Source: Symbiodinium sp. CCMP2592 (lineage: Eukaryota; Sar; Dinophyceae; Suessiales; Symbiodiniaceae). Taken from it: a stretch of 64,000 nucleotides of DNA. The position numbers and the translations under genes were made by a program. The DNA lies in NCBI GenBank assembly GCA_905221615.1, contig CAJNDT010001305.1, positions 1-64,000 on the forward strand. Direction: 5' to 3'. The notes beneath the pieces were generated by a model. The model ran no database searches. It saw only the letters and a program-made list of their open reading frames with translations, and was not told the DNA's origin. The stretch's first letter is position 1. Every line of letters starts with the position of its first letter. Positions 6,085 to 46,882 of this stretch are shown one piece after another.

Positions 6085-7632
6085 TGTGAGTCATAACAAC
6101 TACGAGATCCGTTGCAATCACCTCCAGTCTGGGCCTCTTTGTTTTGACATGTCATACAGCGATGACAAGAGTGACTGGGTCCATGCGTCAGCGACTGGAG
6201 ACGCCGTGTGCATTTTGCCTGAGTGTCCCCAGTCCTTCGGTGATTGGTCGTACGATGGCACCATGGGTCCTACGCCTGAGTGCCACTCAGAGTCAAGTGC
6301 AACGCCTCAGAGTTTTGTCCGTGCTGTGTGCCAGGAGCTTGAAACAGTGATTGTCGACAGCGGTGCTGATCTGTCATGTGTGCCGTTCAGTTATAGCACA
6401 GCAGGAGAGAAGGTTGCCAAGGCATTTTCAGCTCAGGTCAGGGATGCACAAGGTTCCAAGATGAAGGTTGCAGCGCAAAGGAACATCCAGTTCCAGATCA
6501 CCGGCCGCGATGGCCGTCCCATCACGTTGCGTGAAAAGTGCATTGCAACTGGGGTGTCCCAGCCTCTTCTTTCTCTCGGCCGGTTGATCAAAGCCGGATG
6601 GTACCCCTCGCGAGATGACTATGGCATGTTCCTTGTGCATCAGCAGTCAGGAGCTGAGATTCCCATGCAGTTCAAAGGCAACAGCCTGAGCTTGGATGCT
6701 TCAGTGTTTCGGGTTGAAGATGACATCGATGCCATAGGTGAGCCGATTGCACATGTTCGGTTTACTCTTGCTGAGCCTTCAGATGAGCTTGAGAACTCGC
6801 CTTATGGCTGGCACATGTCTACGAGCGGGAACCATTTTGTGTGGAGAGGAGTCACTTCCTTGTACATTGATCCCTCCTTGCTCGTTCCCTTGACTCTTCC
6901 TTGCAGGACCACGCTTGTGCATTACCAAGGGTCATGGAAAATCCTTGAAAAGTCCGTCGAGTGGCAGCTGCTGATCAATGCCACGGCGCCGCTCCCGTGT
7001 GGCGAGGCCGACTGCATCACCATTTTGAGCAGCGGCGATGAGGATCCTGAGATTTTCGGAGTCAAGGTTGAAGGTGCCGTTGAGTCTTACAGTGGCGAGC
7101 AAGGTGAACCCGAGCCGCAGGCCGACTTCGGCGCTGACGCGCCCGAGGGAGTTGATTTTGATTTTGATTTTCACATGGGCCAAGAGCCAGAGGAAGTCGC
7201 ACCAGTGCCGGAGCCAGTTGCAGATGCATTTGAGGCGCCGCCAGTGCGCCAGCAAGTAGACCAGGATGTTGTGATTGACGGCGTCGCTCTTTCTGTGCAT
7301 TCCGCCCTCGGGGCGTTGAAGGCTGCCTGCGAGAAGTTAGGGCTAAGTAAGTCCGGCTCGAAGCAACGCTGCTTTGATCGCTTGAAGGCCTACCAGCAAA
7401 AGCAACAGCTCTCGGCCGAGGTTGAAATTTCGCGACACGCCGCCGATGCTTCCTCCCGTGACCCAAACATGCAGCCGATGCCAGCGCCGCCCTCTCGTGA
7501 GGCGCAGTTGCTGCATGAGGTCACCCACCTGCCATATGCTGCGTGGTGCAGCCACTGTGTGATGATGAAGGCAGTGCCGGACCGGCATACGGTGGATCCC
7601 AAGGGTTCTCGTGCCTACCCTACCATAAGCTT
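6085..7632 (+). CDS. Copia-type retropepsin, SAP-like domain and pre-integrase zinc motif
   Basis: The open frame spans 5822-7855, but homology begins near 6085 and the native element ends at 7632, where the nested insertion starts. The protease active site is VIVDSGADLSCVP (Asp-Ser-Gly). It is followed by the conserved QPLLSLGRLIKAGW strand region. A long acidic linker leads to a SAP-like helix pair (ALGALKAACEKLGL, SKSGSKQRCFDRLK) and then HEVTHLPYAAWCSHC, the GAG-pre-integrase His/Cys zinc motif. The retropepsin would mature the gag-pol polyprotein. After 7632 the open frame runs by chance into the inserted element for about 220 bases. A short segment (about 5900-5960) is repeated imperfectly at 6085-6145, with a frame change between the copies. 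Confidence 0.7.
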
Positions 7633-7836
7633 ACCGTTTGGGTTCCCCAAAAGGATTGTCTCGTGGTTTGAGCCGGGAGGGTGGGCCGGGGGAAAAATGA
7701 AAAACTTTGCGTCAGGCTTCGCGCCGCTTGGAAAGTACTTTGGTAATTTCGTAGATTGCAATGCCATGAGTTCCTCTTGCTTGTCTGCACTAACTGCGTT
7801 TTGCTTGAGCTCAGGTCAACTGTACGAATGTCGTTG
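7633..7836 (+). repeat. Split direct repeat A1 (left terminus)
   Basis: 204 bp starting ACCGTTTGGG; same as A2 at 15788-15991 except for one base in an A-rich run (AAAAATG versus AAAAGTG). It starts right after the host copia codon fragment AGC-TT. Confidence 0.9.
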
Positions 7837-7901
7837 GTGTGTGAGGGGCGGGTAGACCTGCGGCTCGATAGGCATGGGCAGCGAGCTCAGCAGCAGTCGG
7901 C

Positions 7902-9962
7902 ATGAAGAGACATGCCGATTGGTCGGCGCTGCATGGTCTTGATCCTGCATTGATTGCTGCTATCCGTGAGAATTATTCGAGCATTGTGCATTTTGATGGG
8001 GCTTTTGATGATGAGGGCGAAGCAGCAAATACAGTGGAGGAGCTCCTTGGGGATAAGAAGCCAGCTGAAGAAATCAACAAGTTGGCAAGCAGCTTGTGGA
8101 ACTGGAAGGAGAAACGGTTGCATCGTGGGCCATCAAGTGTTCGCATTTTGCAGGAGCACATCCGCGAGCTTCCCGTGAAGGTTCCAAGGAAGATGAGGGA
8201 CATCACAGCGGTGTTTGAAGACGAGGTGCAGATGACTCCAGCTGTTGCGTTGTCGCAATTGAAGAGGGCTGTGAGAACTTCAAAGGCGAGTGGGAGCCGG
8301 GAAGAGATGGAAACGAAGATCCGAGAAAGATGGGCGATGCAGCTCGTAGTGTATATCAAGGAAGCAGAGTTGCCTTGCTCAGAACGCCTGGAAGCACTGG
8401 GCGACAGCAAGGCGACGTGGTTGAGGATCTTTGGAAATCGGCGAGGCAAAACACTTCGGAATCGGGCGCGTTCTTGGATGCCAGTGAGAGAATGGCTAAT
8501 GGTGACTACTGGGGCCCCGTGGCCGGCAGATGTGGGACAAATCCTGAAATATCTTGAGGAGCGACATGCTGTGAAGGCGATGGGTAAGACAGTGCCGCGG
8601 GCAATATTGGCGAGCATCTCTCTTCTTGAAGTTGTGGGAATGGTTCCGTCTGAGCGGCGGCTGTGTGAAGACCAGCTCTTGCTTGAAACGATTCGGTCAT
8701 GGAGTGCTGAGCTTGAGACTGGTGCACCACCGGCCAAACCAGCGCCAATGTTGCCCGTGGTGGTGCTGCTAGCTTGTGAGCTGGTGGTTTGCCGGCCCAG
8801 CTACGAGGTGGGATTGCGATACATGGCTTTCATCTTGCTGTTGATGTGCTGGGCTAGCCTGAGAGCTGATGACGTGCAGAACATCAGTCCTACGTCTGTG
8901 AAGCTCAGCCAGGTGGGTCTGCGATTCGTTTTGAATAAGACTAAAACGAGTGGACCGGGCCGCAAGGTTGGGGAACTTCATGGATTTGTCTCTCGCGCTG
9001 CTTGCTTGAGTGGGTTTGACTGGATTATGGAAGGGCACAAGCTTCTCTCTGCAGAACTGCTCGCGTGGCCTCGTGATTTTCTCTGTCCTGCATTCACGAA
9101 AGACTGGGACGGGGCCTCAAAGGAATACATGGAGGCAGAAGGGCTAGCATTGCAGATCAGACGTTTCCTTCAGCATCTCCCCACTCCTGTCAGGCAGCAG
9201 GGAATCTGGAAAGTTTCGAGAGAGCTCTTGTTGCCAGGTCAGATGGCAAATTACTGGTCAGGGCACAGCGCGAGGCATGTGCTAACAAGCTTGGCAGCAG
9301 CACTTGGCATAAGCAAGGATCGGCGGGACTATCTAGGCCGATGGGCCTACGCAGAGCATGGTTCGCAGGACTATGTGCTGACTTCGAGGCAGGTGGTGCA
9401 AGCAGTGCAGAACTTTGTTTGCAAGAGCCTGCTGATCGGAAGTCCGGAGGGAGGCTACATCGAGGAAGAGCTTCTCTTCTCGATAAAGACTTTTGCTGAG
9501 GGCCTGGGGCTTGAGAGTGTTGCAATCCTGAATGCATGCACTGTCTTGAAATGGGATGAAAGTGAAGAGACCTTCAAGCTAGGGGGCGCGTTTCCCAGCA
9601 TCCCGTTGGGGCCTGACCGGGTCCGGGCTTCAGCAGGCGATCTTGATGCAGAGTTGCCTGGGCCTTATGAGGCATTTGAAGGCGGGGAAGATACTGATGA
9701 GGCTCCGTACTTCATCACCGTCTCCAGGCGGGGTTTCCGCCGTCTTCACTTGTCAAAGAGCTGTGCTGTGAGACGGGAGAACTGCCTTGAGACTATACCG
9801 GTCATGAAACTGACCGAGGGCATTGCTGATGCTGTATGCAAGTTGTGTCGCCCGAAGATTGAGAGCTGCGATGATTCATCCACTAGCGGGTCGGAGGACT
9901 CGCAGGAAGGGCAAGGGACTGAGCCAGAAGCGCTTGAGCCATCAGTGCCGAGTTTTACTTGA
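7902..9962 (+). CDS. Tyrosine recombinase of the YR retrotransposon
   Basis: 686 codons from the ATG at 7902. Residues about 165-250 form an N-terminal helical core-binding region. The catalytic domain shows the full YR set: Arg321 in WASLRADDV, Lys near 346-348 in NKTKTS, His455-x-x-Arg458 in SGHSARHV, Trp481 in LGRWAYAEH and the nucleophile candidate Tyr491 in QDYVL. A C-terminal His/Cys cluster (about 595-640: RLHLSKSC, later CKLCRP) may bind zinc. The enzyme would insert circular element cDNA by site-specific strand exchange, leaving no target duplication, which fits the flanks. The frame is intact, so this could be active. YR family and catalytic order are clear from motifs; assigning it to DIRS/Ngaro rather than Crypton rests on the linked RT and the split repeats. 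Confidence 0.85.
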   Translation: MKRHADWSALHGLDPALIAAIRENYSSIVHFDGAFDDEGEAANTVEELLGDKKPAEEINKLASSLWNWKEKRLHRGPSSVRILQEHIRELPVKVPRKMRDITAVFEDEVQMTPAVALSQLKRAVRTSKASGSREEMETKIRERWAMQLVVYIKEAELPCSERLEALGDSKATWLRIFGNRRGKTLRNRARSWMPVREWLMVTTGAPWPADVGQILKYLEERHAVKAMGKTVPRAILASISLLEVVGMVPSERRLCEDQLLLETIRSWSAELETGAPPAKPAPMLPVVVLLACELVVCRPSYEVGLRYMAFILLLMCWASLRADDVQNISPTSVKLSQVGLRFVLNKTKTSGPGRKVGELHGFVSRAACLSGFDWIMEGHKLLSAELLAWPRDFLCPAFTKDWDGASKEYMEAEGLALQIRRFLQHLPTPVRQQGIWKVSRELLLPGQMANYWSGHSARHVLTSLAAALGISKDRRDYLGRWAYAEHGSQDYVLTSRQVVQAVQNFVCKSLLIGSPEGGYIEEELLFSIKTFAEGLGLESVAILNACTVLKWDESEETFKLGGAFPSIPLGPDRVRASAGDLDAELPGPYEAFEGGEDTDEAPYFITVSRRGFRRLHLSKSCAVRRENCLETIPVMKLTEGIADAVCKLCRPKIESCDDSSTSGSEDSQEGQGTEPEALEPSVPSFT

Positions 9963-10284
9963 AGAGGCTGTGTTCTTGAAAAGGGTTCGGGGAGAGCCTG
10001 CTGAGTTTACAGACTGCAGGTGGAAGCAGTGCATTGTGAACAGTTCATGAGCTTGCTGCGGGTGGAATGCAGCAGAATGATAGAGTGATGCCGGTGGAAG
10101 TGCATCACCATGAATCGGAATTCCTTGCCCGGTGGAAGGCACTCGAGCTTCAGTCATGCAATTGGATGAACATGCATGGTAGATGTCAACTGAGCTTGCG
10201 TGTGCAGAGGCTTTGAGAACGGCTTAAGTTATCCTGCGTTGCACTGCTCATAAGTCCGGTGTTGAGTCCAGGAACAAGTCCAGC

Positions 10285-11634
10285 ATGGCCGCACCTCCGC
10301 CGACTGAGTTGCCGGCGGGAACCTCCGAGGCAGCTGCTCTGTATTTCTTGGATAAAGAGGTCAGCTCCGATTTGGTGCACATCTTTCAAGAATGTGGTGT
10401 ACCATTGGGGTTACAGTTTCGGCTGGCGCAGAACTTCAAGAATGTGAAGCGTTTTTCGACTTATGCTGACACTCGTGCTGACGTGAGAGTTGCATTAAAG
10501 GATGATCACTTGCTGGAGGCAACCAATCAGGCGAGCAGAGCGGCGGTTGCTTCTGTTGTTTCTGCGTGGGAGACTTCCAAGGATTATGCCAGCAAGGAGT
10601 CCGAGCTAAGAGCTGAGGCACGCATGCTGGGAGTGAGTCGGCCAGTCACTCAGACGGAGAAACAGGCGATGCGCATTGCATTCGAGACTGCACATGGCAC
10701 CTTAGAGGAGGCGTTTGAACCTTCAGATGATTACATTTCAGCAAAATTAGAAGAGATCGAGAACGGGGAGGTTTCTGCAAGTGCTTTGTCAGAAGTGACA
10801 TCGAGGAAGCGGGTCAGAACAATGGGCATCCAAACGACAGTGGACACTGGGGGCCACGTGCGGATCGTGAAGCAGAAGAACAAAGGGGCCATGCCTCAGC
10901 ATACTGAGGAGTTGCGCACAGTCCTTCGTGTCGAAGGGAACATGTGGACTATGTTGGCTTCGAAGTTCAAGAACAAACCATTCTTTGCTAACATGACGCC
11001 TGAGGTTTGGCTGAGTTATGTGAACTTTCTCTTGGGGGAGAAGGTCTATCTCATGCAGGTTCCTGCCGGTGGCAAGGGTGGCAAGCTGGATCAGGCTCCG
11101 CTACGGCCGCCTTGGGTTGTTATTCTCAATTTTGAGTTTGAGCTTCGCAAGGAGGCCATCAAGCGAGCATACCGTGACTCGCGGCCCTTGCGGGATACCT
11201 TGAGGGAGGTGGTAGATGATGCCCAGATTAAGGAGCAGTACTTCACTTCGCCGATCGCGTTGCAGAACCGGGGAAAACGAGCAAACGAGTCATGGGAGCC
11301 GTGGGAAGCCGAGGGTTACAATAAATGGAATCGCCATGCTTGGAAAGGTGGATGGAAGGGAAAGGATGGACATCGCGGTGAGAAGGGGAAGAAAGGAAAG
11401 GAAGGTAACCAGAAAGGGAAGGAAGGAAAGGAAGGAAAAGGGAAGCAGCAGAGCATCACCACTTCGCGGACCCCGGATGGCAGGTTCATATGTTTCGCAT
11501 ACTCTGGCCCAGGTTGCGACGGCAATTGCGGCATGGTGCATTGTTGCATGGTGAAAGGGTGCTTGGGCTCGCATCCTACATGGAAGCATTGGCAGCTTCA
11601 TCACGATGGCAAGACGACGGACACGAAAAGCTGA
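10285..11634 (+). CDS. Gag-like protein with C-terminal Cys/His zinc cluster
   Basis: 449 codons from an ATG (MAAPPPTELPAG). The N-terminal ~300 residues are mostly helical with no recognised family. The C-terminus has a Lys/Gly-rich basic tract (GEKGKKGKEGNQKGKEGKEG) and then a compact Cys/His cluster at about 400-435 with spacing C-x7-C-x3-C-x4-H, then CC, C and HP. Basic tail plus zinc cluster is the usual gag nucleocapsid layout, so I infer an RNA-binding structural protein. It lies between the YR gene and the methyltransferase-like frame, and its stop is only 16 bases upstream of the next open frame's ATG. The frame is intact. Confidence 0.6.
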   Translation: MAAPPPTELPAGTSEAAALYFLDKEVSSDLVHIFQECGVPLGLQFRLAQNFKNVKRFSTYADTRADVRVALKDDHLLEATNQASRAAVASVVSAWETSKDYASKESELRAEARMLGVSRPVTQTEKQAMRIAFETAHGTLEEAFEPSDDYISAKLEEIENGEVSASALSEVTSRKRVRTMGIQTTVDTGGHVRIVKQKNKGAMPQHTEELRTVLRVEGNMWTMLASKFKNKPFFANMTPEVWLSYVNFLLGEKVYLMQVPAGGKGGKLDQAPLRPPWVVILNFEFELRKEAIKRAYRDSRPLRDTLREVVDDAQIKEQYFTSPIALQNRGKRANESWEPWEAEGYNKWNRHAWKGGWKGKDGHRGEKGKKGKEGNQKGKEGKEGKGKQQSITTSRTPDGRFICFAYSGPGCDGNCGMVHCCMVKGCLGSHPTWKHWQLHHDGKTTDTKS

Positions 11635-11649
11635 CTGAGCGTCCTGCTC

Positions 11650-12774
11650 ATGACTACGGATTTTACAGTGGGTGCCTCTTTGCATGCGTGTTTGAAGAAT
11701 TTAGCTGAACGCACGGGATGCGATATTAGTGTCGATTATGCAGACTCAGATGGCAGCCTTCTGGATTGGTCTAAGACCTCAACCTGGGAAGCTGTGGTAC
11801 AGCAGGCACGCCATCGTGCTTGGGATGTGTGTTTAATGATTCCGCCTAGCAGCACTTACAGCCGCGCGAGGCATCGACATGACGGGCGACGGAGTGGACC
11901 CAAACCCTTGCGTGCCCGAAATTTTCCCGATGGATTCCCATGGCTTGCTAAGCAACAGATGGCTGCCGTTGAGCATGAGAATTTCTTGATTTCACGTTGT
12001 GTGCATTTGGCCACCGTGTTGGGGGAGCTTCAGATTGGGTGGCTGCTGTTGCATCCCGAGGACCTAGGCGTGCTTGAGAACGAGGACTTTCCCGCTAGCA
12101 TTTGGCAGCGGCATGAGATTAAATCTACTTTAGCAGACATGCCCGGCACAAGGACTTGGGCAGTTCATATGTGCAGTTATGGGGCGGAGGCGGCGCATCC
12201 GACCCGGGCAATCACAAACCTGCGAACAGGACCAGCGGCCATGCCTTGGCCCATACTTGACGATCGGGGCCACTACACTGGACCCCTTGCGCGCTGTGGG
12301 CATTTGCATCCGTCTGCAGCAGGGCGCCACGAAACTGCGTGGGCCACCAACTCTAGTTTTCCGCTTGCATTTCTGGAGTTGCTGGCCGAGCTTGCCCATG
12401 AACGTGCAGCCACAGGGCGAGCGACTGATTCATCCTTTCAAGGGGCCGAGGATTTCGCCTGGTCCTTGATGCAGAGATCCCAACCATTGCATAAGCATGA
12501 TTGCGAGGCTTTAGCTAGGCTGCTGCCCTTCGAGACACCGCATCCGGCGGCAACTGGGGGAAGGCCTGCCACAGGCCGGGCATTCTTCGCAGGTGCGTTT
12601 TCCAGCGTCAGAGCTGCACCGCATTTCCGAATTCTGTCAAGTGTTACGCTTCCTTCTTGCGAAATACATTCCCAGGGAAGGTTTTCAGCTCGCTGGCAAT
12701 CTTCGACAACGTGGCAGCTGCCATGCACAAAGACACCAGAAATGCACCGTTCCCGAACCTGCTGGTGGCCCTAA
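11650..12774 (+). CDS. C5-methyltransferase-like domain of the YR element (catalytic Cys replaced)
   Basis: The open frame runs 374 codons; the homologous part is about residues 1-310. I see a Rossmann-like layout: an N-terminal SAM-site-like helix (VGASLHACLKNLAERTG), an acidic strand end (ISVDYADSDG), then WDVCLMIPPSSTYSRARH followed by GPKPLRARNFPDGFPWL, then WLLLHPEDLG and PASIWQ, and VHMCSYGAEAAHPTRAITNL. This resembles the C5-cytosine methyltransferase motif IV/VI arrangement (PPC-x-x-[ST]-[YF]-S, then E[NH]P). In this copy the residue after PP is Ser instead of the catalytic Cys, and HP stands where ENP/EHP would be, so base methylation is doubtful. After about 12590 the frame appears to shift toward the next domain. 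An adenine-MTase relationship (DPPY motif) is a weaker alternative. Confidence 0.6.
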   Translation: MTTDFTVGASLHACLKNLAERTGCDISVDYADSDGSLLDWSKTSTWEAVVQQARHRAWDVCLMIPPSSTYSRARHRHDGRRSGPKPLRARNFPDGFPWLAKQQMAAVEHENFLISRCVHLATVLGELQIGWLLLHPEDLGVLENEDFPASIWQRHEIKSTLADMPGTRTWAVHMCSYGAEAAHPTRAITNLRTGPAAMPWPILDDRGHYTGPLARCGHLHPSAAGRHETAWATNSSFPLAFLELLAELAHERAATGRATDSSFQGAEDFAWSLMQRSQPLHKHDCEALARLLPFETPHPAATGGRPATGRAFFAGAFSSVRAAPHFRILSSVTLPSCEIHSQGRFSARWQSSTTWQLPCTKTPEMHRSRTCWWP

Positions 12775-13030
12775 CGGAATTCCAGCAGGGTCACGTGTGG
12801 TGCGAGTCCTCCACCGGCACGGTGCATCGTTCAGTTCGGGGAGTTGATCGCCCAGGCAACCTCCTGCCTGTTGCCGACTCACCGCAGATTTTGATGGCGC
12901 ATGAAGTCTTCCACCAGACAGAACCTTGGACGGGCGATCGCTTACTGCTTGTAGGCTTCACAGTGCAGCGCACTGCCAACTTGTCCACAGACCAGCAAGC
13001 AATTCTTCGTGCCTTAGGCTTTGTCTTGCC
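12600..13030 (+). CDS. 2-oxoglutarate/Fe(II) dioxygenase-like domain
   Basis: The frame that ends in RT begins with a segment showing the double-stranded beta-helix iron-binding pattern. It has SSLAIFDNV, then the HxD motif in MHKDTRN (about 12719-12739), NLLVALTEFQQGHVWCES, and a distal His in VFHQTEPWTGDRLLLVGFT (about 12905-12960), with an Arg eleven residues later suited to bind the 2-oxoglutarate carboxylate. The upstream part of the fold (GRAFFAGAF, then ELHRISEFCQVLRFLLAKYIP) sits in the two other frames, so two frameshifts lie within about 60 bases near 12600-12660. Oxidation of nucleic-acid bases or protein is possible; the substrate cannot be read from sequence. The domain directly follows the methyltransferase-like domain and precedes RT, suggesting one polyprotein. 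Confidence 0.6.
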
Positions 13031-15488
13031 TCCGTCCGAAACTCTGAAGCAGGGGGGCGCGGACGATGACAGCAACAAAGCTGACACAAACCTGGACTTC
13101 CCCCGAGAGGATAACACCCCCCATGAGGCAGCCGCTTCTGGGGCCCCGGGCCCAGCTAACACCCCCTTGGGAGGGACCACCCAAGAGGCTTCCAGTAGCA
13201 CCCCGTTGGAGGGGCCCACTCCTTCGGCTCCCGGCGTTGCACCTCCTAATCCCGAACCAAGCTTCCAGGAGAGTGAGGAAGAAGATGATGATGAAAGGGA
13301 TTTTGATCCGGCTACAAGTCGATGTAGGGGACCACCGATAAAGTGTAGGCACACTCGCGAATGGAGGGAGCTGGTCGATGGCTTCGGCCTGTGCTCTCCG
13401 GGCAGATGGAGGCCACTCGCAAGGAATGCAACTGCAAGCTCAGGGGAATGGAATCATGCTGTGGAGCTGCGAGAAATTCTTGTGCAGGCTGTGCGGTCGT
13501 CCCTTCCGGATCTTCGGAAAGCTTCATATCTTCTTGAAGCAGGACGCATGGCATCTTCTCCTTTCAGCAAGGACCTGATTGAGAACATCCGGGCACGCAT
13601 TGCCGAGACCTTGCCAGATCCCGAGCAAGCCTTGTGTCGACCCGAAGGGCAGCCCTTCATGTTGCACATGTTGTCTCAGTCTTTGAAGCTGCTGGGAGAC
13701 CCAGACTATGCAATACTTGATCAAGGCAGTGAATGCTTCGCAGAAGGTGTGCCGCTGGGGTGGGACAAAGCGATCCCCCGCACGCCACAGGTGTTTCCGA
13801 AACGCACCCACTTCAGGAAGCTTGATGAATCCGATTTTGATCCGTCGATGGTGAACTACCGATCGGCCGAGATGAATGCCTCCCAGCTGGAGGAGAAGTT
13901 CCGTGCGGACGAGCAGGCAGGTCTGATGATCTGCACCACTGAAGCGGAAGCTCGCCGGAAATATGGGGAGGACGCAGTGCTCATAGCAGCTATGGGAGCT
14001 GTCACCAAGGCGAACGGTGACGTGCGCCCATTACACGATGGGACCCATGGCATAAACTTGAACAACTCTATTAAAATCCTTGACAAGCTACAAGTTCCGG
14101 GACCTGAAGATCTTCAAGAGGTGGCTTCCCGAGTCAAAGAAAGTAAAGAAGCTCCTTTTACACTTTGTGCCGACATTAGCCAAGCCCACCGGAATGCCAA
14201 AATCAGGGAGTGCGACTGGGCACGGCTAGCGTGTAAATCTTCCAGCACATCACGCGTCTTGTGGCTTAATAAGGTAGGAACTTTCGGGGTCAGCTCAGCG
14301 GCCTACTACTGGACCAGATTGTTCGCCACTGTAGGGAGGTGGACTTTCCGTGTGCTGCACCACGACAAGTTCTACATGCTTATTTATGTCGATGACCTTC
14401 ATGTGGTGGTGTACGGTGCCGAGAAATTTGAAACCTTATGGGTCCTGTTCTTGGCGATGGAAGTTTTGGGGACACCCTTCTCGTTCCACAAGTTTAAAGG
14501 GGGCGTCAGTGTGGACTACATTGGCTACCACATCAGCTACTACGAGTGGGCAGCCGGCATCTCTGAGAAACGAGCCAACTGGATTATCGAATGGATCAAC
14601 CGTGTCGAGTCATCGAATTGGGTGGTCACCGGACGGGCGCTTACGGAGTTCACGGGACGCCTGTGCTTCGTGACACGGCTGTTAACTTGGTTGAAGCCAT
14701 TTCTTGCACCGCTATATGCTTGGAACAACGTGCTGAACCGGAGCACGGCTGCCCAGGTCCCTGAGATGGTGATCCATGTCCTTCGGTTCTTCAGGTGGCA
14801 GTTCTTGAATGGGGCCCGTCTTGATGCCGTGCACATGTGCTGGCCGTCGTGCGAGCGCCAGGCCTTCAGGACCGATGCCAAATGTGAATCTGGACGGATC
14901 GTGCTAGGGGGATGGTCACTTGATCATGGCATGGACACGCGTCGGGCACCTTGGTTTGCGCTGGAAATCTTTCCAGCGGATTTTCCGGCACTCTTCAAGG
15001 AAGATGGATCTTCTGAATGGGCATCTACGGCTGCGGAGTTGCTGGCATCTTATGCCGGCTTGGTTGCTTTCAAACATCTTGAGACTTCAGGTGGCCGAGA
15101 CTCGCTTCGCTTGCAGGTTCATGCTGGCACGGACAACTCTGCTACCCCAGCAGTGTTGGCTAAGGGCATCAGCAACAAGTGGCCAGTGCAGGGCCTGCAT
15201 ATGCAATTGTCATTGTCTTTGAGGAACGCCAACAAGTTGTGCCGGCTGTCTTGGCGCCCACGGGAGGAGAACCAGGATGCAGATGACCTGACGAATCTTC
15301 GTACTAGCAACTTTGATCAGGCCTTGCGGGTTCCCTTGTCATTGTCTGACCTCCCGCTGGACTTGTTCAACATGCTTCGGGAGGCCCATACCGATTTCTT
15401 GTCAGAGAAGGCGAGGCTCGCAGGTGTAAAGGCATTTGAACCGAAAGTGACGAAGAGACAGAAGTTACTTGACAAAACCGAATGGTGA
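12657..15488 (+). CDS. DIRS-type reverse transcriptase and RNase H (dioxygenase-like N-terminus)
   Basis: 943 open codons. Residues 1-110 carry most of the dioxygenase-like domain, 115-220 a Pro/acidic linker and about 390-700 the RT. The RT has VRPLHDGTHGINLN, first catalytic Asp in TLCADISQAHRNAKI and the second pair in LIYVDDLHVV (about 14380-14400), followed by IGYHISY. RNase H follows with four likely metal ligands: Asp in FRTDAKC, Glu in STAAELLAS, Asp in AGTDNSATP and Asp in NQDADDLTN. The RNase H pattern (TDNxA... and NxxADxL-like) is that of DIRS-order elements, not copia. It would copy element RNA into cDNA. The frame is intact to the stop at 15488, just before repeat B1. The listed 5' end is not a real start: the frame is open upstream and the first residue is a Leu codon. 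Confidence 0.8.
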   Translation: MRNTFPGKVFSSLAIFDNVAAAMHKDTRNAPFPNLLVALTEFQQGHVWCESSTGTVHRSVRGVDRPGNLLPVADSPQILMAHEVFHQTEPWTGDRLLLVGFTVQRTANLSTDQQAILRALGFVLPPSETLKQGGADDDSNKADTNLDFPREDNTPHEAAASGAPGPANTPLGGTTQEASSSTPLEGPTPSAPGVAPPNPEPSFQESEEEDDDERDFDPATSRCRGPPIKCRHTREWRELVDGFGLCSPGRWRPLARNATASSGEWNHAVELREILVQAVRSSLPDLRKASYLLEAGRMASSPFSKDLIENIRARIAETLPDPEQALCRPEGQPFMLHMLSQSLKLLGDPDYAILDQGSECFAEGVPLGWDKAIPRTPQVFPKRTHFRKLDESDFDPSMVNYRSAEMNASQLEEKFRADEQAGLMICTTEAEARRKYGEDAVLIAAMGAVTKANGDVRPLHDGTHGINLNNSIKILDKLQVPGPEDLQEVASRVKESKEAPFTLCADISQAHRNAKIRECDWARLACKSSSTSRVLWLNKVGTFGVSSAAYYWTRLFATVGRWTFRVLHHDKFYMLIYVDDLHVVVYGAEKFETLWVLFLAMEVLGTPFSFHKFKGGVSVDYIGYHISYYEWAAGISEKRANWIIEWINRVESSNWVVTGRALTEFTGRLCFVTRLLTWLKPFLAPLYAWNNVLNRSTAAQVPEMVIHVLRFFRWQFLNGARLDAVHMCWPSCERQAFRTDAKCESGRIVLGGWSLDHGMDTRRAPWFALEIFPADFPALFKEDGSSEWASTAAELLASYAGLVAFKHLETSGGRDSLRLQVHAGTDNSATPAVLAKGISNKWPVQGLHMQLSLSLRNANKLCRLSWRPREENQDADDLTNLRTSNFDQALRVPLSLSDLPLDLFNMLREAHTDFLSEKARLAGVKAFEPKVTKRQKLLDKTEW

Positions 15489-15522
15489 GGCTGTCGGCTT
15501 CTCTCACGGCCGGTCTCAAGTT

Positions 15523-15787
15523 GGGGAGCTGTTGCCGGTTGTTCGATCAGCCGGTTGCCGTAAGTGCAATGCATTCTCCTTGAAGCCCGTAGGCTGTGCA
15601 GACCGAATCCGGAGAGTCCCGACACACGTCGCAAAAATGAAGACCAGTCCCAGTGAGTGCGCATTCAGTTTGAACATGTTTGGAATGTTGCGAACTTGTT
15701 TTACCTTGTACCTTAACCTTGCCAGTGAACCCTGAAACCCCTTGCCACCCTAGAGCCGTAGCCTTCTTGGTTCAAACAGCGGGACAA
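15523..15787 (+). repeat. Split direct repeat B1
   Basis: 265 bp, same as B2 (16118-16382) except one base (AGTCCCAGTG versus AGTCCGAGTG). It abuts A2 directly. It ends GGGACAA and contains a spliced-leader-like 21-mer. Confidence 0.9.
15756..15776 (+). other. Spliced-leader-like motif inside repeat B1
   Basis: CCGTAGCC then TTGG then TCAA aligns without gaps to the dinoflagellate spliced leader core at 17 of 21 positions by my count. Its copy in B2 is at 16351-16371. Confidence 0.4.
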
Positions 15788-15991
15788 ACCGTTTGGGTTC
15801 CCCAAAAGGATTGTCTCGTGGTTTGAGCCGGGAGGGTGGGCCGGGGGAAAAGTGAAAAACTTTGCGTCAGGCTTCGCGCCGCTTGGAAAGTACTTTGGTA
15901 ATTTCGTAGATTGCAATGCCATGAGTTCCTCTTGCTTGTCTGCACTAACTGCGTTTTGCTTGAGCTCAGGTCAACTGTACGAATGTCGTTG
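15788..15991 (+). repeat. Split direct repeat A2
   Basis: Second copy of repeat A, contiguous with B1. A further 126 bp (15992-16117) unique to this place separates it from B2. Confidence 0.9.
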
Positions 15992-16117
15992 CCACTTTGG
16001 CACGAGGAAAAATTTTGTGTCCCACCCACGCCGCCCTTGAATGCCGAAGGCATCACTTGTGTTTCAAGTGTCACTCTTGCATGCCAACGTCTGCTATGTG
16101 CTTGTATCGCACGGAAG

Positions 16118-16382
16118 GGGGAGCTGTTGCCGGTTGTTCGATCAGCCGGTTGCCGTAAGTGCAATGCATTCTCCTTGAAGCCCGTAGGCTGTGCAGACCG
16201 AATCCGGAGAGTCCCGACACACGTCGCAAAAATGAAGACCAGTCCGAGTGAGTGCGCATTCAGTTTGAACATGTTTGGAATGTTGCGAACTTGTTTTACC
16301 TTGTACCTTAACCTTGCCAGTGAACCCTGAAACCCCTTGCCACCCTAGAGCCGTAGCCTTCTTGGTTCAAACAGCGGGACAA
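16118..16382 (+). repeat. Split direct repeat B2 (right terminus)
   Basis: Second copy of repeat B; its last bases GGGACAA end exactly where the host copia frame resumes (CGGTCTGTGTTAC). Confidence 0.9.
16351..16371 (+). other. Spliced-leader-like motif inside repeat B2
   Basis: Same 21-base motif as in B1, 12 bp from the right border of the element. Confidence 0.4.
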
Positions 16383-17160
16383 CGGTCTGTGTTACACGGG
16401 ATACAGTGCCGGGAACCAGCTTGAAGGCGCACCCGATGCCTCGGATAGGGATAAGCTCACCTGCCTTGTCGGTCATTGTTCGCACACCGGAAGCATCTTT
16501 GCACTTCCTCTCCCGGACAAGTCTGGGAACAGCATGCGATCAGCAGCCTGCGAGCTCGTCAGGTTTTGCCAGCTCCTCGGCCATACCGAGGTCGAGTTAA
16601 TGTGCGATCAGGAGCCAAGCATGTTGCAGCTCCAAGGCTTAGTTCTGGCAGCAAGGAAGCGCCTCGGCTTCCGCACTCGCATCCGCAATCCAGGCATTGA
16701 TGAGCACCAGCAGAATGGCAATGCCGAGAAGCCGAGAAGAGCATAGATGTGATTCGCAATCTTGCAAACGTGTTGCTGTCGCAAGCCCGGTCCAAATTTG
16801 ACCTCGCATTGCCGGTACAGCACCCGCTCTTTGCGTGGGCCTGGGTGCAGGCCAGCTGGTTGTACAACCGGTTTCATGTCAAGTCCGGGTTGACTGCTCA
16901 TGAGCGTGCTCTGGATGCCGCTACAATGGTCGCCTCCTTCCCTTCGCAGAGCCGTGCTGGGCGTACGTACGCCCGAGCCAGAAAGGCTCCCCACGCTGGA
17001 CCATGTCGATCTTCTTGACGAAGAGCAGTGTGAATGACATGTTTGTGGTGGCAACTCCTCGAGGCGTGCAGCTCGCCCGATCAGTCCGCCGGACGGGCCA
17101 ACCATGGGCCTCCGAGCAAGCTCTGGCTGAAGCCATCAAGGGCGTGCCATGGGACTATAC
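16383..17160 (+). pseudogene. Copia-type integrase core, 3' half of the interrupted element
   Basis: The frame restarts in phase with the host frame cut at 7632. The strand that normally carries the first catalytic Asp reads ISF-GLCYTGYS here, so Gly/Leu replace the usual Asp-Phe. The second Asp is present in LMCDQEPSM. The third acidic position (NGNAEK) is followed at once by a frameshift caused by an 8-bp duplication of GCCGAGAA (about 16722-16737). Integrase homology then resumes in another frame (VIRNLANVLLSQ, WLYNRFHVK), and from 17003 in a third (SVNDMFVVATPRGV, VRRTGQPW). It is clearly inactive. Confidence 0.65.
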
Positions 17161-18351
17161 CACCTTGGGACCATTGGCACGAAAATGATTCCTCAGGCTA
17201 AGCTGCGTGCTCCCAAAGCCGTGCCACTGCCAGATGTGCCGTTGAATGTCATGCCACCGGCAGGACTTCCAGTGCGAGAGCAACTTGCTTCAGCTTCTCC
17301 TGCCGTTCCAGCAGTGCTGCCCGCGCAGGCTGAGGAGAGTGAAGTTCCAGCAGTGATGCCTCCGAGCGTCGCAACCGCGGCCCCTTCTAGCCGCCCGACT
17401 TTGCTTCTCGATCGTGGCGACCGCCGCCCTGTTGCTGCATCGCCCATGGAAATCGCGGGAACTGACTCGCCTGTCACTCCAGGAACATCCATCGATTACT
17501 CTCCGTCCCCAGCTTCTCTCCCGGACGGTCGTGTCCCGGATGATACTTTGCTTCAGGATTTGAGATCCCGGCCAGGCGGGGATGAACCGTCTTCTGCAGT
17601 ACCGCCGGAGCCTAAGCGGCCTCGCCTTCTCCGGAGTGTTATGATCAGGTCAGCCCGCAGCAGCAACGCAGAGGAACTCCATCATGCAGATGAAACATTG
17701 GAGTTGCAGTTTGATGCTGAAGTTTCAGAAAGTTTGCAGATGTATGAAGATGAGTTGAGCGAGCAGCTGCATGAGCAGGATGAGGATTATGAAGTGACTG
17801 CTGAAGGCATTCCCAAGTGCCTCATCCGCGACCTGTCGGATCACGAGCCCGAGCTAAGTGCCGAAGAGTTGTTTGAGGCCGACAGGCAAGCCTCCCTCTT
17901 TGAAGTTGCCCGCCTTGGCGCCAAGAGCGTCCTTGTGCAGGTTGCAGGGCCGCTGCCAGGCCATCGCACGTTGAGCACCAAGTTCGTTGTGTCATGGCGC
18001 CAGAAATGCATAGGGGGCGAGGAGGTTTGGCTCAGAAGGGCTCGTTTGGTGGCGAGGGAGTTCGCCTTTCTGGATCCCCATCGCGAGGGTCTCTTTAGCC
18101 CTGCCAGCAGCTCCATCGTGACTCGCATCATCCCAGCGCTGTTTATGCAGCAGCGTGCCGCTGGATGGTCCATGATTGCCGTCGACGTTGCAGATGCTTA
18201 CTTGACTTGCAGCCAGGGCGAGCCCACTGTGACTTCTGTGAAGCTTGGGCATCAGACTTTGTGGTTTCGCTTGGACAAGTGTCTCCCGGGCCAGCGTGAT
18301 GGGTCGAGCCGATGGTTCGGTGACTTCTCCGGTTACCTGGCCGAACACTGA
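17149..18351 (+). pseudogene. Copia-type linker and N-terminal RT (RVT_2)
   Basis: The first ~200 residues are a Pro/Ala/Ser-rich linker with acidic patches. RT homology begins near residue 240 with STKFVVSWR and RRARLVAREFA, then LFSPASSS and MIAVDVADAYLTCSQ (first catalytic Asp), and LDKCLPGQRDGSSRW. These are the RVT_2 hallmarks of copia elements, different from the DIRS-type RT inserted between the two halves. The frame is lost at 18351 shortly before the second catalytic motif, which appears in the next frame. Confidence 0.7.
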
Positions 18352-32176: not shown

Positions 32177-32197
32177 GTGTGTGTGTGTGTGTGTGTG
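32177..32197 (+). repeat. (GT)n microsatellite at 5' edge of duplication copy 1
   Basis: About ten GT units directly before CCCTGCCTCGG, the first base of the duplicated block. Confidence 0.9.
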
Positions 32198-32351
32198 CCC
32201 TGCCTCGGTGGCTGAGGTACTCTGCCTTCCAGTTCACCCTTTCACCGTTACTGGGCGCAAAATGGATGTTCAAGTGTGGCGTTATCCTCTAGCATTGAAG
32301 GGCCATGGAGTGAACCAGTTCTGCTGACCTAGGCTGGACATTGGATGGCCG

Positions 32352-33116
32352 GTGAGACGGCCAAGGCGCTTCACTGCTTTGGTCCATCGTCGATGGCACT
32401 GTTCCGCTTCGCAGTCCGACTTCGAGTTTCATTTCGGTGCTTCTGCGGCCATGACGGGCAGCGATCTACTGGCTATGCCACCGAACATCGTCGAGGAATA
32501 CTTCCGAAACAAACTCCGTCAGAAACTCTGCCACAAAGAAGGCCTTCTCGAAGCAGCTGATTTCAGACGAGTGCTGACTCCGCGGCAGAGAAAAATGCTT
32601 GAGGAATTTGAGGAGCTCGCTGCCAAGGACGGGGGCGAGCTGGGCGAGGACTTCTTGGTCGACTTGTCCCAGACCGCCGAGTGGACCACGGTCGCAAACA
32701 GTGCCCCGTGCCTTCTTCGTGGATCATTGCCGCTTGCATGCCCAGGGGGGATAATGTACGTTCGGTCTGAAAACACTTTGGCTTTGCTTTCTTGCTTTCC
32801 ATATGCAGCAAGGATCTGGAGCCACAAGCTGCAGCGCACGGCCTTGCCAGCAGAGCACATGCTGCTGCAAGGCGTCCCGCTGCTAGAGGACAAGAGTCCG
32901 TGGAAGCAGTTCGTGCTTGACAAGGCCGTGGATCCATGTTTTGACAGCATGTTTCTGAACTTGTCCGGGAATGCCATGCATCGTGCTGTCATTGGAACAT
33001 GGGCTGCGTATATCGTCGGCTCCCTGTCCCCTTGTGCCTCGCCTTCCTCATTTCGATTCCGGTCCACGTCAGAGCTGACAATCACGGCTGACGATGCTGA
33101 CGCTGCAGCAGACTAG
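32352..33116 (+). CDS. C5-methyltransferase-like gene, exon 3 (C-terminal part)
   Basis: Contains a helical stretch (NIVEEYFRNKLRQ), FLVDLSQTAEW, APCLLRGSLPLACPGG, then LPAEHMLLQGVPLL (like the RxLTxxExxxLQGFP of C5-methylases) and LSGNAMHRAVIGTWAAY (motif X-like GN). The end, after Ser/Ala/Asp-rich residues, is at 33116. Where the exon begins is unclear: a CGCAG acceptor at 32411-32415 before TCCGACTTCG is a candidate. This exon was copied in the tandem duplication; the copy at 34659 is broken. Confidence 0.6.
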   Translation: MRRPRRFTALVHRRWHCSASQSDFEFHFGASAAMTGSDLLAMPPNIVEEYFRNKLRQKLCHKEGLLEAADFRRVLTPRQRKMLEEFEELAAKDGGELGEDFLVDLSQTAEWTTVANSAPCLLRGSLPLACPGGIMYVRSENTLALLSCFPYAARIWSHKLQRTALPAEHMLLQGVPLLEDKSPWKQFVLDKAVDPCFDSMFLNLSGNAMHRAVIGTWAAYIVGSLSPCASPSSFRFRSTSELTITADDADAAAD

Positions 33117-34318
33117 ATTCGAAGAACAGTCTGCTTTACCTGCAGATTGCAGAAGCAAGGATTTCACGCGGTCTTTCTCAGAGTCAGCTGGACATGCGTA
33201 ACATACAGAGGCCAGCCTACCTGCTGCTCGTGTTGTAGGAACGATGCTGTCACGAACGAGTTACTACACCTGGTAATGCTTTCAGACTGTGACCGGGGCC
33301 CCAGGGTTTCTAGACTATTCTGTAGACAGTAGACTTTGGAGAGCCACGAACTTGACAGCATCGTTCATCCTACGCCAGGAGACTGTCAGATTGCCTGTAA
33401 CAGATATCCACAAATCTTTAGTAGCACCACTGCTATCTGCAAATGTTTGGAACAGGTTGCTTTACCTGGCAGGAGTGTCACAACACGAGCACACATCATG
33501 ATTCATAATTTGCTCGGCCAGCATCTGCAAACAGACAGCAGGAGGCCTGCCTCCGAGTACAACATGAGCGGCACAGAAGCCTGTCTGCAGGTCGAGCAGT
33601 TTGCACGGACGGAAGTGTTGGAGGAAGGATGCTGTCCATAACGAGTCAGGGGTCCGGGGTCAGGGGAAAAGCTTATAAAATTACCTCGGGTTCTAGAGTC
33701 TATAGATTGTACTCTAGACTATGGACCGCCAGACCCCAGTCCCCGCGATCCCAGCCCTGGCCACACTAAGCATCTGATTTGGTTTCTGGGCCCCGCCCCA
33801 ATGCCCTGGAGTATCATGGGACTCAGTAACTAGGCTGACTAGGGTTATAGATACTTTAATTGGTCTTATACAGAATTGGAGCTATAGTTACCTTACTTGT
33901 AATCCTATTCCTCCAAGCAGCGCCTCCAGCGTCGTTCAGAGTTTTGTTCGCGAGTTTTCTTAGACTAGTTGTACTACACGGTGGTACAATGGATTCTGCG
34001 TTCCGTGCAAAAAAAGGCAGCTTTGTCAACCAGACCTTCCGTCCTTGCGGGGCCAGACTTCAAGTCAGTGAATCGCTGTGCCAGTGCAGCCAGTGCAGTG
34101 GATGATCGATCGAGTGACTCAGGTGGCTGGCTCATAGGTTGAATGATGGAGCAAGTTGGGCAAGTGAATATCTGCGAGTTGCAACAATCTCATGCTCCAG
34201 GCAGGGCTGCACAATCTCATGTTCCAGGCAGGGCTCCAGGCTCCAGGACACTTTTCTTGGCCGGCATTCTAGGCAGGACGCACGACACCAGCTTCTTGTA
34301 GTGTGTAGCTGCTGAGTC
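33117..34318. other. Intergenic DNA within duplication copy 1
   Basis: No defended gene. A short frame beginning MDSAFRAKK at 33989 is shifted relative to its counterpart at 36287 by one A in a poly-A run. Confidence 0.4.
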
Positions 34319-34474
34319 ATGGCGGATCTCGAAGGGCCTCTCCAAGAGGAAGTGCAGTTGAGGGTGACGAGCAGCTTGAGGGGCTTCTTGCAGCTGCTGA
34401 TGCCTTCGGCAATGCAGCTTCCACTGGTCGGAGGGCCAAGTCGAAAGCAAAGGCGAAGGCGAAGGCCTAGGTGA
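34319..34474 (+). pseudogene. Broken copy of exon 1 start of the gene at 36609
   Basis: Begins MADLEGPLQEEVQ as at 36609 but lacks one base after GTGCAGTT, which shifts the frame to a stop at 34472-34474. The duplicated block ends shortly after, so this copy could not encode the full protein. Confidence 0.75.
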
Positions 34475-34492
34475 GGCCCGTGTGCTCGGGGC

Positions 34493-34511
34493 GTGTGTGT
34501 GTGTGTGTGTG
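34493..34511 (+). repeat. (GT)n microsatellite at the duplication junction
   Basis: About nine GT units sit exactly between the end of copy 1 and the start of copy 2, matching the tract at 32177-32197. This suggests the tract mediated the duplication. Confidence 0.9.
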
Positions 34512-34658
34512 CCCTGCCTCGGTGGCTGAGGTACTCTGCCTTGCAGTTCACCCTTTCACCGTTACTGGGCGCAAAATGGATGTTCAAGTGTGGCGTTATC
34601 CTCTAGCATTGAAGGGCCATGGAGTGAACCAGTTCTGCTGACCTAGGCTGGACATTGC

Positions 34659-35381
34659 ATGGCCGGTGAGACGGCCAAGGCGCTTCACTGCTTTGGTCCA
34701 TCGTCGATGGCACTGTTCCGCTTCGCATTCGAGTTTCATTTCGGTGCTTCTGCGGCCATGACGGGCAGCGATCTACTGGCTATGCCACCGAACATCGTCG
34801 AGGAATACTTCCGAAACAAACTCCGTCAGAAACTCTACCACGCAGAAGGCCCTCTCGAAGCAGCTGATTTCAGACGAGTGCTGACTCCGCGGCATAGACA
34901 AATGCTTGATGAATTTGAGGAGCTCGCTGCCAAGGACGGGGGTGAGCTGGGCGAGGACTTCTTGGTCGACTTGTCCCAGACCGCCGAGTGGACCACGGTC
35001 GGAGTCGCAAACAGTGCCCCATGCCTTCTTCGTGGATCATTGCCGCTTGCATGCCCAGGGGGGATAATGTACGTTCGGTCTGAAAACACTTTGGCTTTGC
35101 TTTCTTGCTTTCCATATGCAGCAAGGATCTGGAGCCACAAGCTGCAGCGCACGGCCTTGCCAGCAGAGCACATGCTGCTGCAAGGCGTCCCGCTGCTAGA
35201 GGACAAGAGTCTTCTCAAGCAGTTCGTGCTTGAGAAGTCCGTGGATCCATGTTTTGACAGCATGTTTCTGAGCTTGCCATGCATCGTGCTGTCATTGGAA
35301 CATGGGCTGCGTATGCACTCGGCTCCCTGTCGCCTTGTGCCTCGCCTTCCTCATTTCGATTCCGGTCCACGTCAGAGCTGA
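34659..35381 (+). pseudogene. Duplicated, broken C-terminal exon of the methyltransferase-like gene
   Basis: Reads like exon 3 of the gene at 31-33 kb (MTGSDLLAMPPNIVEEY, FLVDLSQTAEW, LPAEHMLLQG). However, a small deletion just after FDSMFLSL removes the SGN of LSGNAMH and shifts the frame to a stop at 35381, so motif X is lost. No copies of exons 1 or 2 precede it. A 7-bp deletion at its 5' end removes the candidate splice acceptor. It is non-functional as a methylase. Confidence 0.75.
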
Positions 35382-36608
35382 GAATCACGGCTGACGATGC
35401 TGACGCTGCAGCAGACTAGAAGAACAGTCTGCTTTACCTGCAGATTGCAGAAGCAAGGATTTCACGCGGTCTTTCTCAGAGTCAGCTGGACATGCGTAAC
35501 ATACAGAGGCCAGCCTACCTGCTGCTCGTGTTGTAGGAACGATGCTGTCACGAACGAGTTACTACACCTGGTAATGCTTTCAGACTGTGACCGGGGCCCC
35601 AGGGTTTGTAGACTATTCTGTAGACAGTAGACTTTGGAGAGCCACGAACTTGACAGCATCGTTCATCCTACGCCAGGAGACTGTCAGATTGCCTGTAACA
35701 GATATCCACAAATCTTTAGTAGCACCACTGCTATCTGCAAATGTTTGGAACAGGTTGCTTTACCTGGCAGGAGTGTCACAACACGAGCACACATCATGAT
35801 TCATAATTTGCTCGGCCAGCATCTGCAAACAGACAGCAGGAGGCCTGCCTCCGAGTACAACATGAGCGGCACAGAAGCCTGTCTGCAGGTCGAGCAGTTT
35901 GCACGGACGGAAGTGTTGGAGGAAGGATGCTGTCCATAACGAGTCAGGGGTCCGGGGTCAGGGGAAAAGCTTATAAAATTACCTCGGGTTCTAGAGTCTA
36001 TAGATTGTACTCTAGACTATGGACCGCCAGACCCCAGTCCCCGCGATCCCAGCCCTGGCCACACTAAGCATCTGATTTGGTTTCTGGGCCCCGCCCCAAT
36101 GCCCTGGAGTATCATGGGACTCAGTAACTAGGCTGACTAGGGTTATAGATACTTTAATTGGTCTTATACAGAATTGGAGCTATAGTTACCTTACTTGTGA
36201 TCCTATTCCTCCAAGCAGCGCCTCCAGCGTCGTTCAGAGTTTTGTTCGCGAGTTTTCTCAGACTAGTTGTACTACACGGTGGTACAATGGATTCTGCGTT
36301 CCGTGCAAAAAAGGCAGCTTTGTCAACCAGACCTTCCGTCCTTGCGGGGCCAGACTTCAAGTCAGTGAATCGCTGTGCCAGTGCAGCCAGTGCAGTGGAT
36401 GATCGATCGAGTGACTCAGGTGGCTGGCTCATAGGTTGAATGATGGAGCAAGTTGGGCAAGTGAATATCTGCGAGTTGCAACAATCTCATGCTCCAGGCA
36501 GGGCTGCACAATCCCATGTTCCAGGCAGGGATCCAGGACACTTTTCTTGGCCGGCATTCTAGGCAGGACGCACGACACCAGCTTCTTGTAGTGTGTAGCT
36601 GCTGAGTC
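35382..36608. other. Intergenic DNA within duplication copy 2
   Basis: Mostly non-coding. One short frame from ATG 36287 to 36439 (MDSAFRAKKAALSTRPS..., 50 codons) is open here; the counterpart in copy 1 is frameshifted, so selection on it is not evident. Confidence 0.35.
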
Positions 36609-37697
36609 ATGGCCGATCTCGAAGGGCCTCTCCAAGAGGAAGTGCAGTTCGAGGGTGACGAGCAGCTTGAGGGGCTTCTTGCAGCTGCTGATGCCTTCGG
36701 CAATGCAGCTTCCACTGGTCGGAGGGCCAAGTCGAAAGCAAAGGCGAAGGCGAAGGCCTCAGGTGAGGCCCGTGTGCTCGGGGTTCCTGCTCCAAAGAAG
36801 GCTCCGGGACGTGAGACGTACCGTGGCCTCAAGTGCATGATCTGCCAGTGCGAAGATTGCACTGGCAAGAATCCGTATTGTCAGAAGTGCAAAGCTGACG
36901 TGGACAGCTTGGCGAAGACCGCGAAGGACGATGGGTGGGTCGAGAAATACGAAGATGCGAAGCGCAACGAGCGCACCTTCCGGAAATTGGTCCGGGATTA
37001 TCAGTTGGAGTGCCCGTCGAAAGGCAAAGGCCGCGCCCGTGTGCAGTACTCCAAGTCGAGAGCTCTCGAGATCATCGCCAACGAGCAGATTTCCGACGAG
37101 GGCACGCGCATGGCGAAGATGGACTGGTTTGACTTTGAGGCCTTCTACTCGCAGAAGAAGCTTTCGCCCGAAGACATCGAGACAAAATGGCGGACCCGTC
37201 TCGCTGCAGAGGGCGCTTACGACCTGGAAGGCGAGAACAGAGCCTTTCCAGAACGACTGCTCGTGAGGAAGGAGGACTACGTTGACTCCAAGGCTCGCCG
37301 CCGCGTCTCCCACCAGCTTGTCAACGAAGCCTCCCCGAAGGTCGCGAAGGAATCCTTCCTCGAGGACACCGCTGACGACCGACCCGCGAACTTCTTCTCG
37401 TCTGAGGCGAACAAGTTCTTTGAAGCGAGACCAAAGCGACGGGGTTCCACAGGCTCCAACGCCTCCGCCGGTTCCCTCTCCAGTGCGCCTGCTGCAGCTG
37501 CAGACGAAGAGAACGGAGAGAAAGAGAAACTCGTTGGCGGTGACCTGACAGTGTCGCGGCTGAAGGCCTTCGACGAGACCGGGGAGCAGCTCCAGAAGGC
37601 TCTCGAGACCCTTGGCGCCACAATCGCCAAGGTGGAGAAGGAGGCGCTTGGTTCCGTTGCAAGGGTTTCGGATTGGTTGGTTGATCCTCATCAGCTT
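36609..37697 (+). CDS. Three-exon gene of unknown function, exon 1
   Basis: Starts at ATG 36609 (MADLEGPLQEEVQFEGDEQ). Residues about 75-100 hold a small Cys cluster (CMICQCEDCTGKNPYCQKC) that likely binds zinc. Charged helical segments follow (KYEDAKRNERTFRKLVRDY), then FDFEAFYSQKKLSPEDIETKW, a Ser/Ala-rich acidic linker and a C-terminal helix (LQKALETLGATIAKVEKEA). The exon ends in phase at HQL before GTAATA (donor at 37698). Its partner acceptor CAG|G at 38279 keeps phase 0. The frame is long, unbroken and continued by two further exons, so this looks like a functional host gene. No family recognised. Confidence 0.65.
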
Positions 37698-43799: not shown

Positions 43800-43830
<31 letters not shown>

Positions 43831-46869: not shown

Positions 46870-46882
46870 TGTGTAACAGTAT

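Follow-up and report, generated by a model that had tools for sequence, protein, structure and literature searches.

The stretch of DNA analysed here (the window; 64,000 nucleotides of Symbiodinium sp. CCMP2592, contig CAJNDT010001305.1) contains a DIRS/Ngaro-like tyrosine recombinase (YR) retrotransposon that appears to carry an accessory module in its Pol region, composed of a degenerate C5-methyltransferase-like domain (MT) and a dioxygenase-like domain (OX) related to the TET/JBP family. In the reading that we favour, and to which we assign a probability of roughly 60%, OX would oxidise a modified pyrimidine and so counter silencing of the element.

Organization of the element

Self-comparison of the window revealed that positions 7633-16382 of the forward strand (8,750 bp) form one YR retrotransposon with the repeat order A-coding-B-A-B; all features given below lie on this strand. 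Repeat A1 forms the left end (7633-7836) and is 99.5% identical to A2 (15788-15991), which abuts B1 (15523-15787); B1 is in turn 99.6% identical to B2 at the right end (16118-16382). The element splits a polyprotein ORF, Copia-type as judged by eye, into two portions (6600-7632 and 16383-18351). When the flanks 6600-7632 and 16383-17200 are joined, a single open frame of 464 aa crosses the insertion site; this continuity sets the ends of the element at 7633 and 16382, where no duplication of the target site can be seen. Elsewhere in the window, a tandem duplication of ~2.3 kb (97% identical) occupies 32179-36783, and the GC content falls to ~0.425 beside a dense repeat cluster (42001-46000, 45323-51812).

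The ORFs of the element follow the order YR (by motif), gag-like, MT-like, and then OX, RT and RNase H. The ORF at 7872-9962 was read as a tyrosine recombinase from motifs recognized by eye (SGHSARHV...GRW...YVLTSRQ); it has no Pfam match and no relevant PDB match, and a stretch homologous to it precedes OX and RT in P0007, a protein of Symbiodinium necroappetens. The gag-like ORF (10228-11634), in which a basic Gly/Lys tract and a Cys/His cluster were noted by eye, matches no Pfam family above its cut-off. MT (11650-12396) was recognized by motifs and profile comparisons, and OX (12603-13015), the N-terminal edge of which is incomplete in this copy, by motifs and family kinship. The reverse transcriptase core (14085-14534) contains YVDDLH and matches RVT_1 with an E value of 0.009, against 7.1e-4 in the relative P0003; both values are below the cut-off, and the YVDD motif accompanies them. 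Finally, the RNase H-like region (14800-15480) was placed by eye from motif and order, and a weak RVT_3 match (E 0.097) was obtained only in the relative P0020. In the Pfam scan of the window ORFs all matches fell below cut-off, the sensible one being that to RVT_1, and MT and OX were therefore tested via their relatives.

All motifs named in an earlier note on this DNA, which was made from the sequence alone, are present and in the order it gave. The ORF at 11635-12774 (first ATG at 11650) contains IPPSSTYSRAR, GPKPLRARNFP and LHPEDLG, while the ORF at 12519-15488 contains MHKDTRN and VFHQTEPWTGDR, followed in one frame by RT and RNase H-like sequence, so that the claimed continuity of the dioxygenase-like part with RT and RNase H is directly seen. 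The residues proposed for OX are encoded at 12726-12728 (His), 12732-12734 (Asp), 12912-12914 (distal His) and 12939-12941 (Arg). MT and OX occupy different frames in the window copy, which overlap at 12519-12774, where the single Pol frame of the relatives is broken. Elsewhere in the genome, 35 of 36 fetched copies have a single open frame of 1128-1315 aa that covers OX and some or all of MT (the exception, L032, has a 944-aa frame); the frame break thus belongs to the window copy.

Relatives in databases and in the genome

A search with the OX part returned five proteins, one of them from S. necroappetens, and two profile searches, each scoring the 8000 best candidates, returned at least 25 and at least 68 proteins. 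Together, these three protein searches gave at least 91 different related proteins; 91 proteins, the two halves of the window module and five genome copies made up the 98 sequences that were compared. Both domains are present in 38 of these, MT only in 52 (many of them fragments) and OX only in 8. In addition, the genome of the window was searched (1.098 Gb, 5383 contigs), and 36 places scored against P0003 have no stop in the matched frame and group into five subfamilies of 9, 6, 5, 10 and 6 copies. In a 24-row RT tree the window clade forms a single branch (100/100). Several gains or losses are needed to explain the distribution of OX on this tree, whose distant rows have long branches. Scans of viral contigs with profiles A4 and A5 produced no conserved stretch.

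Kinship of OX to the TET/JBP family

The Tet_JBP profile was run blind over the whole 1.1 Gb genome at E<=0.1 and found 61 places, with a best E value of 2.2e-4 and none over the Pfam curated cut-off; among 14 control genomes one matched (E. coli, below cut-off). We fetched 18 of the 61 places, namely the eight best and ten picked mostly for their long frames. An OX profile built without these sequences matches all 18, at 110-149 bits, whereas the highest score among 18 reversed OX sequences was 8.2 bits. By hmmscan, Tet_JBP matches the L037 domain at E 2.3e-7 (3.6e-6 for its 709-aa frame), L045 at 6e-5, L048 at 9.8e-5, L054 at 1e-4 and L051 at 3.3e-4, and none of seven reversed sequences. Among 25 non-redundant OX domains, nine match Tet_JBP (best E 0.007), as did six of 16 in a smaller earlier set, in both cases below cut-off; three other families match one domain of the 25 each, one of these being 2OG-FeII_Oxy_3. 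No OX match reaches Pfam's own cut-off for Tet_JBP (34.9 bits), and the best matches span at most positions 56-162 of the 164 in the profile.

A search of the PDB with the family profile A9 points in the same direction: the first five of its seven matches are TET2 (E 0.0098, 0.0098 and 0.010) and CcTet (0.012 and 0.012). In these alignments HxD falls on HxD, and HxDxxN on HRDLHN of TET2. The alignment to TET2 covers a short stretch of 37 residues (single-stretch E 0.064); across four TET2/CcTet alignments the single-stretch values range from 0.026 to 0.065. In a second, non-significant stretch the distal His is aligned with LHATTP of TET2. PDB matches improved as lineages were added, profile A4 having no TET match and A7 reaching CcTet at E 0.2 only. 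Likewise, the earliest OX members matched Tet_JBP poorly, and significance came only after other lineages had joined. A scan of NCBIfam gave nothing useful.

No direct Tet_JBP match was obtained for the window OX piece, for OX of L057 and L059 or for the Copia protein P0026, and P0092 matches at E 0.26 only; the membership of the window OX therefore rests on its homology to the OX of other lineages. On this profile evidence, we regard the OX family as homologous to TET/JBP. The dioxygenase-like character proposed in the earlier note is thereby upheld and sharpened to TET/JBP kinship, by the genome-wide Tet_JBP search, the L037 score and the PDB matches to TET2 and CcTet. Chance occurrence of the OX motifs is ruled out by the combined profile and genome evidence.

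Conserved residues and selection in OX

Conservation of HxD and of the distal His among relatives, on which the earlier interpretation depended, was found in both sets. In 41 proteins the first His is present in 39, the Asp and the Asn at +5 in all 41, the distal His in 36 and the Arg in 35, three proteins having gaps at the latter two positions. In the 36 genome copies the first His is present in 34, and Asp, Asn, distal His and Arg in every one. The exceptions at the first His are P0040, P0056, L025 and L026, the latter two being open-frame copies, almost identical to each other, that have Pro for this His; P0028 and P0030 depart at both distal His and Arg, and P0027 has Lys for Arg.

All 77 sequences (41 proteins and 36 genome copies) have the Asn at +5, and an aromatic residue occupies position +6 from the Arg in 75 of 78 readable sequences (Phe in 57, Tyr in 18). 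In TET2 the corresponding Asn of HRDLHN (Asn1387) contacts cytosine, and the base-stacking Tyr (Tyr1902) occupies the place of the OX aromatic residue; Arg1896 is a further functional residue of TET2. The invariant Asn and the aromatic residue after Arg would thus favour a 5-modified cytosine as the OX substrate. The OX Asn position corresponds in CcTet to Gly331 (in a register derived from His326 of CcTet), which, together with Asp337, has been linked to the use of 6mA (PMC12730594).

OX is under purifying selection. Within subfamilies L001, L008, L009, L014 and L027, its pN/pS values are 0.27, 0.23, 0.21, 0.35 and 0.08, respectively, compared to 0.04, 0.07, 0.06, 0.03 and 0.13 for RT, 0.76, 0.18, 0.49, 0.17 and 0.57 for MT, and 0.19, 1.36, 1.93, 0.97 and 0.33 for the Pro-rich linker. 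OX is therefore less constrained than RT in four of the five subfamilies. Because synonymous sites approach saturation between subfamilies, an estimate was possible for a single OX pair (0.13). Compared with OX, MT is under looser constraint in three subfamilies and under tighter constraint in two (0.18 versus 0.23, and 0.17 versus 0.35), which argues that MT is still constrained and not simply decaying. In subfamily L014 (L014-L022 and L024) synonymous divergence amounts to ~0.19 in MT and 0.03 in OX, as if MT had a separate history in some copies.

Ancestry and lost motifs of MT

The first MT profile has only three PDB matches, all to DNMT2 and weak (E 0.16-1.5), and three of the four matches of a second profile are again DNMT2 (weak, E 0.29-0.46). 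In 13 MT members, PF00145 was detected in three (weak, best E 0.049), HEM4 in one (E 0.0057), and PHROG DNA methyltransferase families in up to six (best 0.0077). A Dam-like, N6-adenine type was rejected, as the PPC and EHPEDLG motifs and the DNMT2 matches point to the C5 type. The MT-bearing proteins P0022 and P0025 (as well as P0083 and P0089) additionally carry DUF4326 (PF14216).

Three MT motifs were scored by hand, namely F-A/S-G (motif I), PPC (motif IV) and the Glu of motif VI, numbered as in C5-methyltransferases. The window copy lacks motif I, has PPS at motif IV (Ser at 11848-11850) and Leu at the motif VI Glu position (12049-12051). Throughout the window clade motif I is absent, and all 33 readable genome copies have Leu, Val or Ile in place of the Glu; PPC has become PPS in seven of 32 readable copies, all belonging to the subfamily of the window, and also in P0003. 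Outside this clade, 46 sequences have F-A/S-G (many others begin downstream of it), PPC is usual (with PPG in P0015), and the Glu is kept in 70 of 74 readable sequences, eight of the 70 being near-identical copies; those without it are P0014, P0017 (counted as outside the clade), P0090 and P0093. In the genome of the window, none of the three MT motifs is lost from L059 and L060, and their OX residues are conserved as well. L057 and L058 read PPA and IHPEDLG in MT but have also preserved the OX residues; the OX of L058 is shorter by about ten residues. In L037-L044 both domains look intact by motif.

The methyltransferase identification put forward earlier is thus retained in part: a C5 ancestry is weakly favoured, with DNMT2 as the best PDB match, and a working writer is not supported in the window clade, where the motifs are lost. 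There, MT is probably a non-catalytic binding or scaffold domain, and only the oxidising half looks alive. The loss of MT residues alongside the retention of OX residues suggests which half matters to the window clade.

OX in other architectures

In a second YR lineage the two domains occur in reverse order, OX-MT-RT-RNase H (L055, L037 and L056, on contig C485 of the same genome). L037 gives the strongest TET/JBP score seen; the YR of this lineage was identified by motif and by a weak Phage_int_SAM_1 match (E 0.18). In P0026, which belongs to the Copia polyproteins (RVT_2 6.6e-11, rve 1.8e-4), both MT and OX were recognized by profile, and ten further fetched genome places have frames of 1520-3208 aa that are Copia-type by eye. 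OX also lies within very long frames in L045-L053, P0026, P0027 and P0028; in L054 it is located upstream of an apparent integrase zinc-binding region, which represents another polyprotein position. P0092 has OX fused to a different RT type, and no MT in the protein.

These arrangements raise the possibility that the TET/JBP family has been captured in dinoflagellates by at least two retrotransposon superfamilies (two YR lineages and Copia), repeatedly paired with an MT-like domain in either order, and would serve the element as a self-encoded means to write or erase oxidised marks on its own DNA, thereby shaping dinoflagellate 5mC and hmU. We hold this broader proposal tentatively, at somewhat below even odds.

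Proposed role of the module and alternatives

We propose that its fusion to RT would bring OX to the nucleic acid of the element, where it would oxidise a pyrimidine modified at the 5-position, 5-methylcytosine being the first choice and thymine the second. The target would be the cDNA or the integrated copies of the element, and the outcome would be escape from, or resetting of, genome-wide CG methylation. The fold, enzyme activity, substrate and anti-silencing role of OX are what we infer. Heavy, genome-wide CG methylation is reported for Symbiodinium, the host group (PMC5890265); this, the RT fusion and the membership of OX in a family of DNA-base oxidases led us to judge that OX would counter silencing.

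Since the position of OX in Pol, beside RT, would also suit an enzyme acting on RNA, we considered whether it may be an AlkB-like RNA demethylase that strips methyl groups from the RNA of the element ahead of reverse transcription or in its course. An orchid Gypsy element has been published with an AlkB m6A demethylase that is functional (PMC9289625). This is nonetheless an unlikely explanation for OX: its kinship is with TET/JBP, no AlkB family occurs among the matches of the 25 OX domains (on which ground an AlkB identity was rejected), TET2 and CcTet lead the PDB matches, and the partner domain is C5-methyltransferase-like.

A JBP-like activity that converts thymine to 5-hydroxymethyluracil (hmU) on element DNA, adding to dinoflagellate hmU, seems improbable to a similar degree. 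The invariant Asn at +5 resembles that of HRDLHN in TET2, which has a role in cytosine recognition, and the neighbouring MT family looks cytosine-type; both argue against hmU synthesis. The idea nevertheless draws on the replacement of 12-70% of thymine by hmU in dinoflagellates (PMC6723414) and on Breviolum minutum, in which multimapping reads are ~2-fold enriched in hmU pull-down (PMC11071213).

The earlier note had also envisaged a combined write/oxidise module, in which MT would methylate cDNA cytosines and OX would oxidise them, leaving a 5hmC-type mark of the element's own. Retrotransposon DNMTs can methylate CG de novo (PMC5890265), MT and OX co-occur in 38 of the 98 sequences, they are paired in opposite orders in two YR lineages as well as in the Copia protein P0026, and both look intact in L059 and L060. 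On the other side, the motif VI Glu as well as motif I are missing from the window clade, and the motif IV Cys from the subfamily of the window; L057 and L058 lack both Cys and Glu yet keep the OX residues, and MT stands without OX in 52 of the 98 sequences, many of them fragments. The loss of the SAM-binding motif and of the motif VI Glu makes such a module very unlikely in the window element, although by motif it is possible in L059, L060 and L037-L044, and write/oxidise may fit those other lineages.

That MT and OX ride along without activity, or have a structural part in Pol, is just as hard to credit, since, despite the loss of MT catalytic residues and of the HxD His in L025, L026, P0040 and P0056, the OX residues are otherwise near-invariant and OX pN/pS is 0.08-0.35.

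We thus retain the interpretation of OX as a putative oxidase of modified pyrimidines. Elements with a TET-like OX may edit DNA marks, perhaps their own, and the OX-bearing elements allow a direct test of whether this occurs. Furthermore, the many open OX copies in a host group rich in 5mC and hmU provide candidate enzymes for the origin of these marks.

Comparison with known systems

OX shares the HxD register with TET2 and CcTet, and with TET2 also the Asn at +5 and, in the weak second stretch, a distal His under LHATTP. Unlike these enzymes, OX comprises ~170 residues and is fused to MT and RT. TET enzymes have large specific inserts and a Cys-rich region, neither of which was seen in OX.

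Among the closest known systems are the SymbioDIRS-Dnmt3 elements, YR elements of Symbiodinium with the order A-coding-B-A-B and a cytosine methyltransferase in Pol in two domain orders (de Mendoza et al. 2018, PMC5890265). The window element shares both this layout and a methyltransferase-type domain in Pol. The DNMT of SymbioDIRS-Dnmt3 is of the Dnmt3 kind (PF00145) with conserved key residues, whereas MT of the window clade is degenerate; MT is set apart from those PF00145 domains by its weak PF00145 scores alone (3 of 13 members, best 0.049). The words 'dioxygenase' and 'TET' have no occurrence in the accessible text of that article. DIRS elements with a Dam-type methyltransferase likewise combine a YR retroelement with a methyltransferase; these are of the N6-adenine type, and the passages describing them name no dioxygenase.

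Orchid Ty3/Gypsy AlkB offers a parallel for the capture of a 2OG dioxygenase by a retrotransposon; it is an RNA demethylase located in an additional ORF of a plant LTR element (PMC9289625), whereas the window OX is fused within Pol and is TET/JBP kin. Among titles and abstract openings of the open-licence literature, no TET/JBP dioxygenase in a retrotransposon was found, and a fungal survey reports having found no retrotransposon with such a domain (PMC12730594). That survey describes fungal DNA transposons that carry a TET/JBP dioxygenase, proposed to aid in escaping silencing (Kojima 2025, PMC12730594). The elements described here resemble them as mobile elements with a TET/JBP-type domain; the fungal carriers, however, are DNA transposons, whereas the algal elements are retrotransposons that have it fused to RT. 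DNA methyltransferases are known from retrotransposons and, separately, TET enzymes from DNA transposons.
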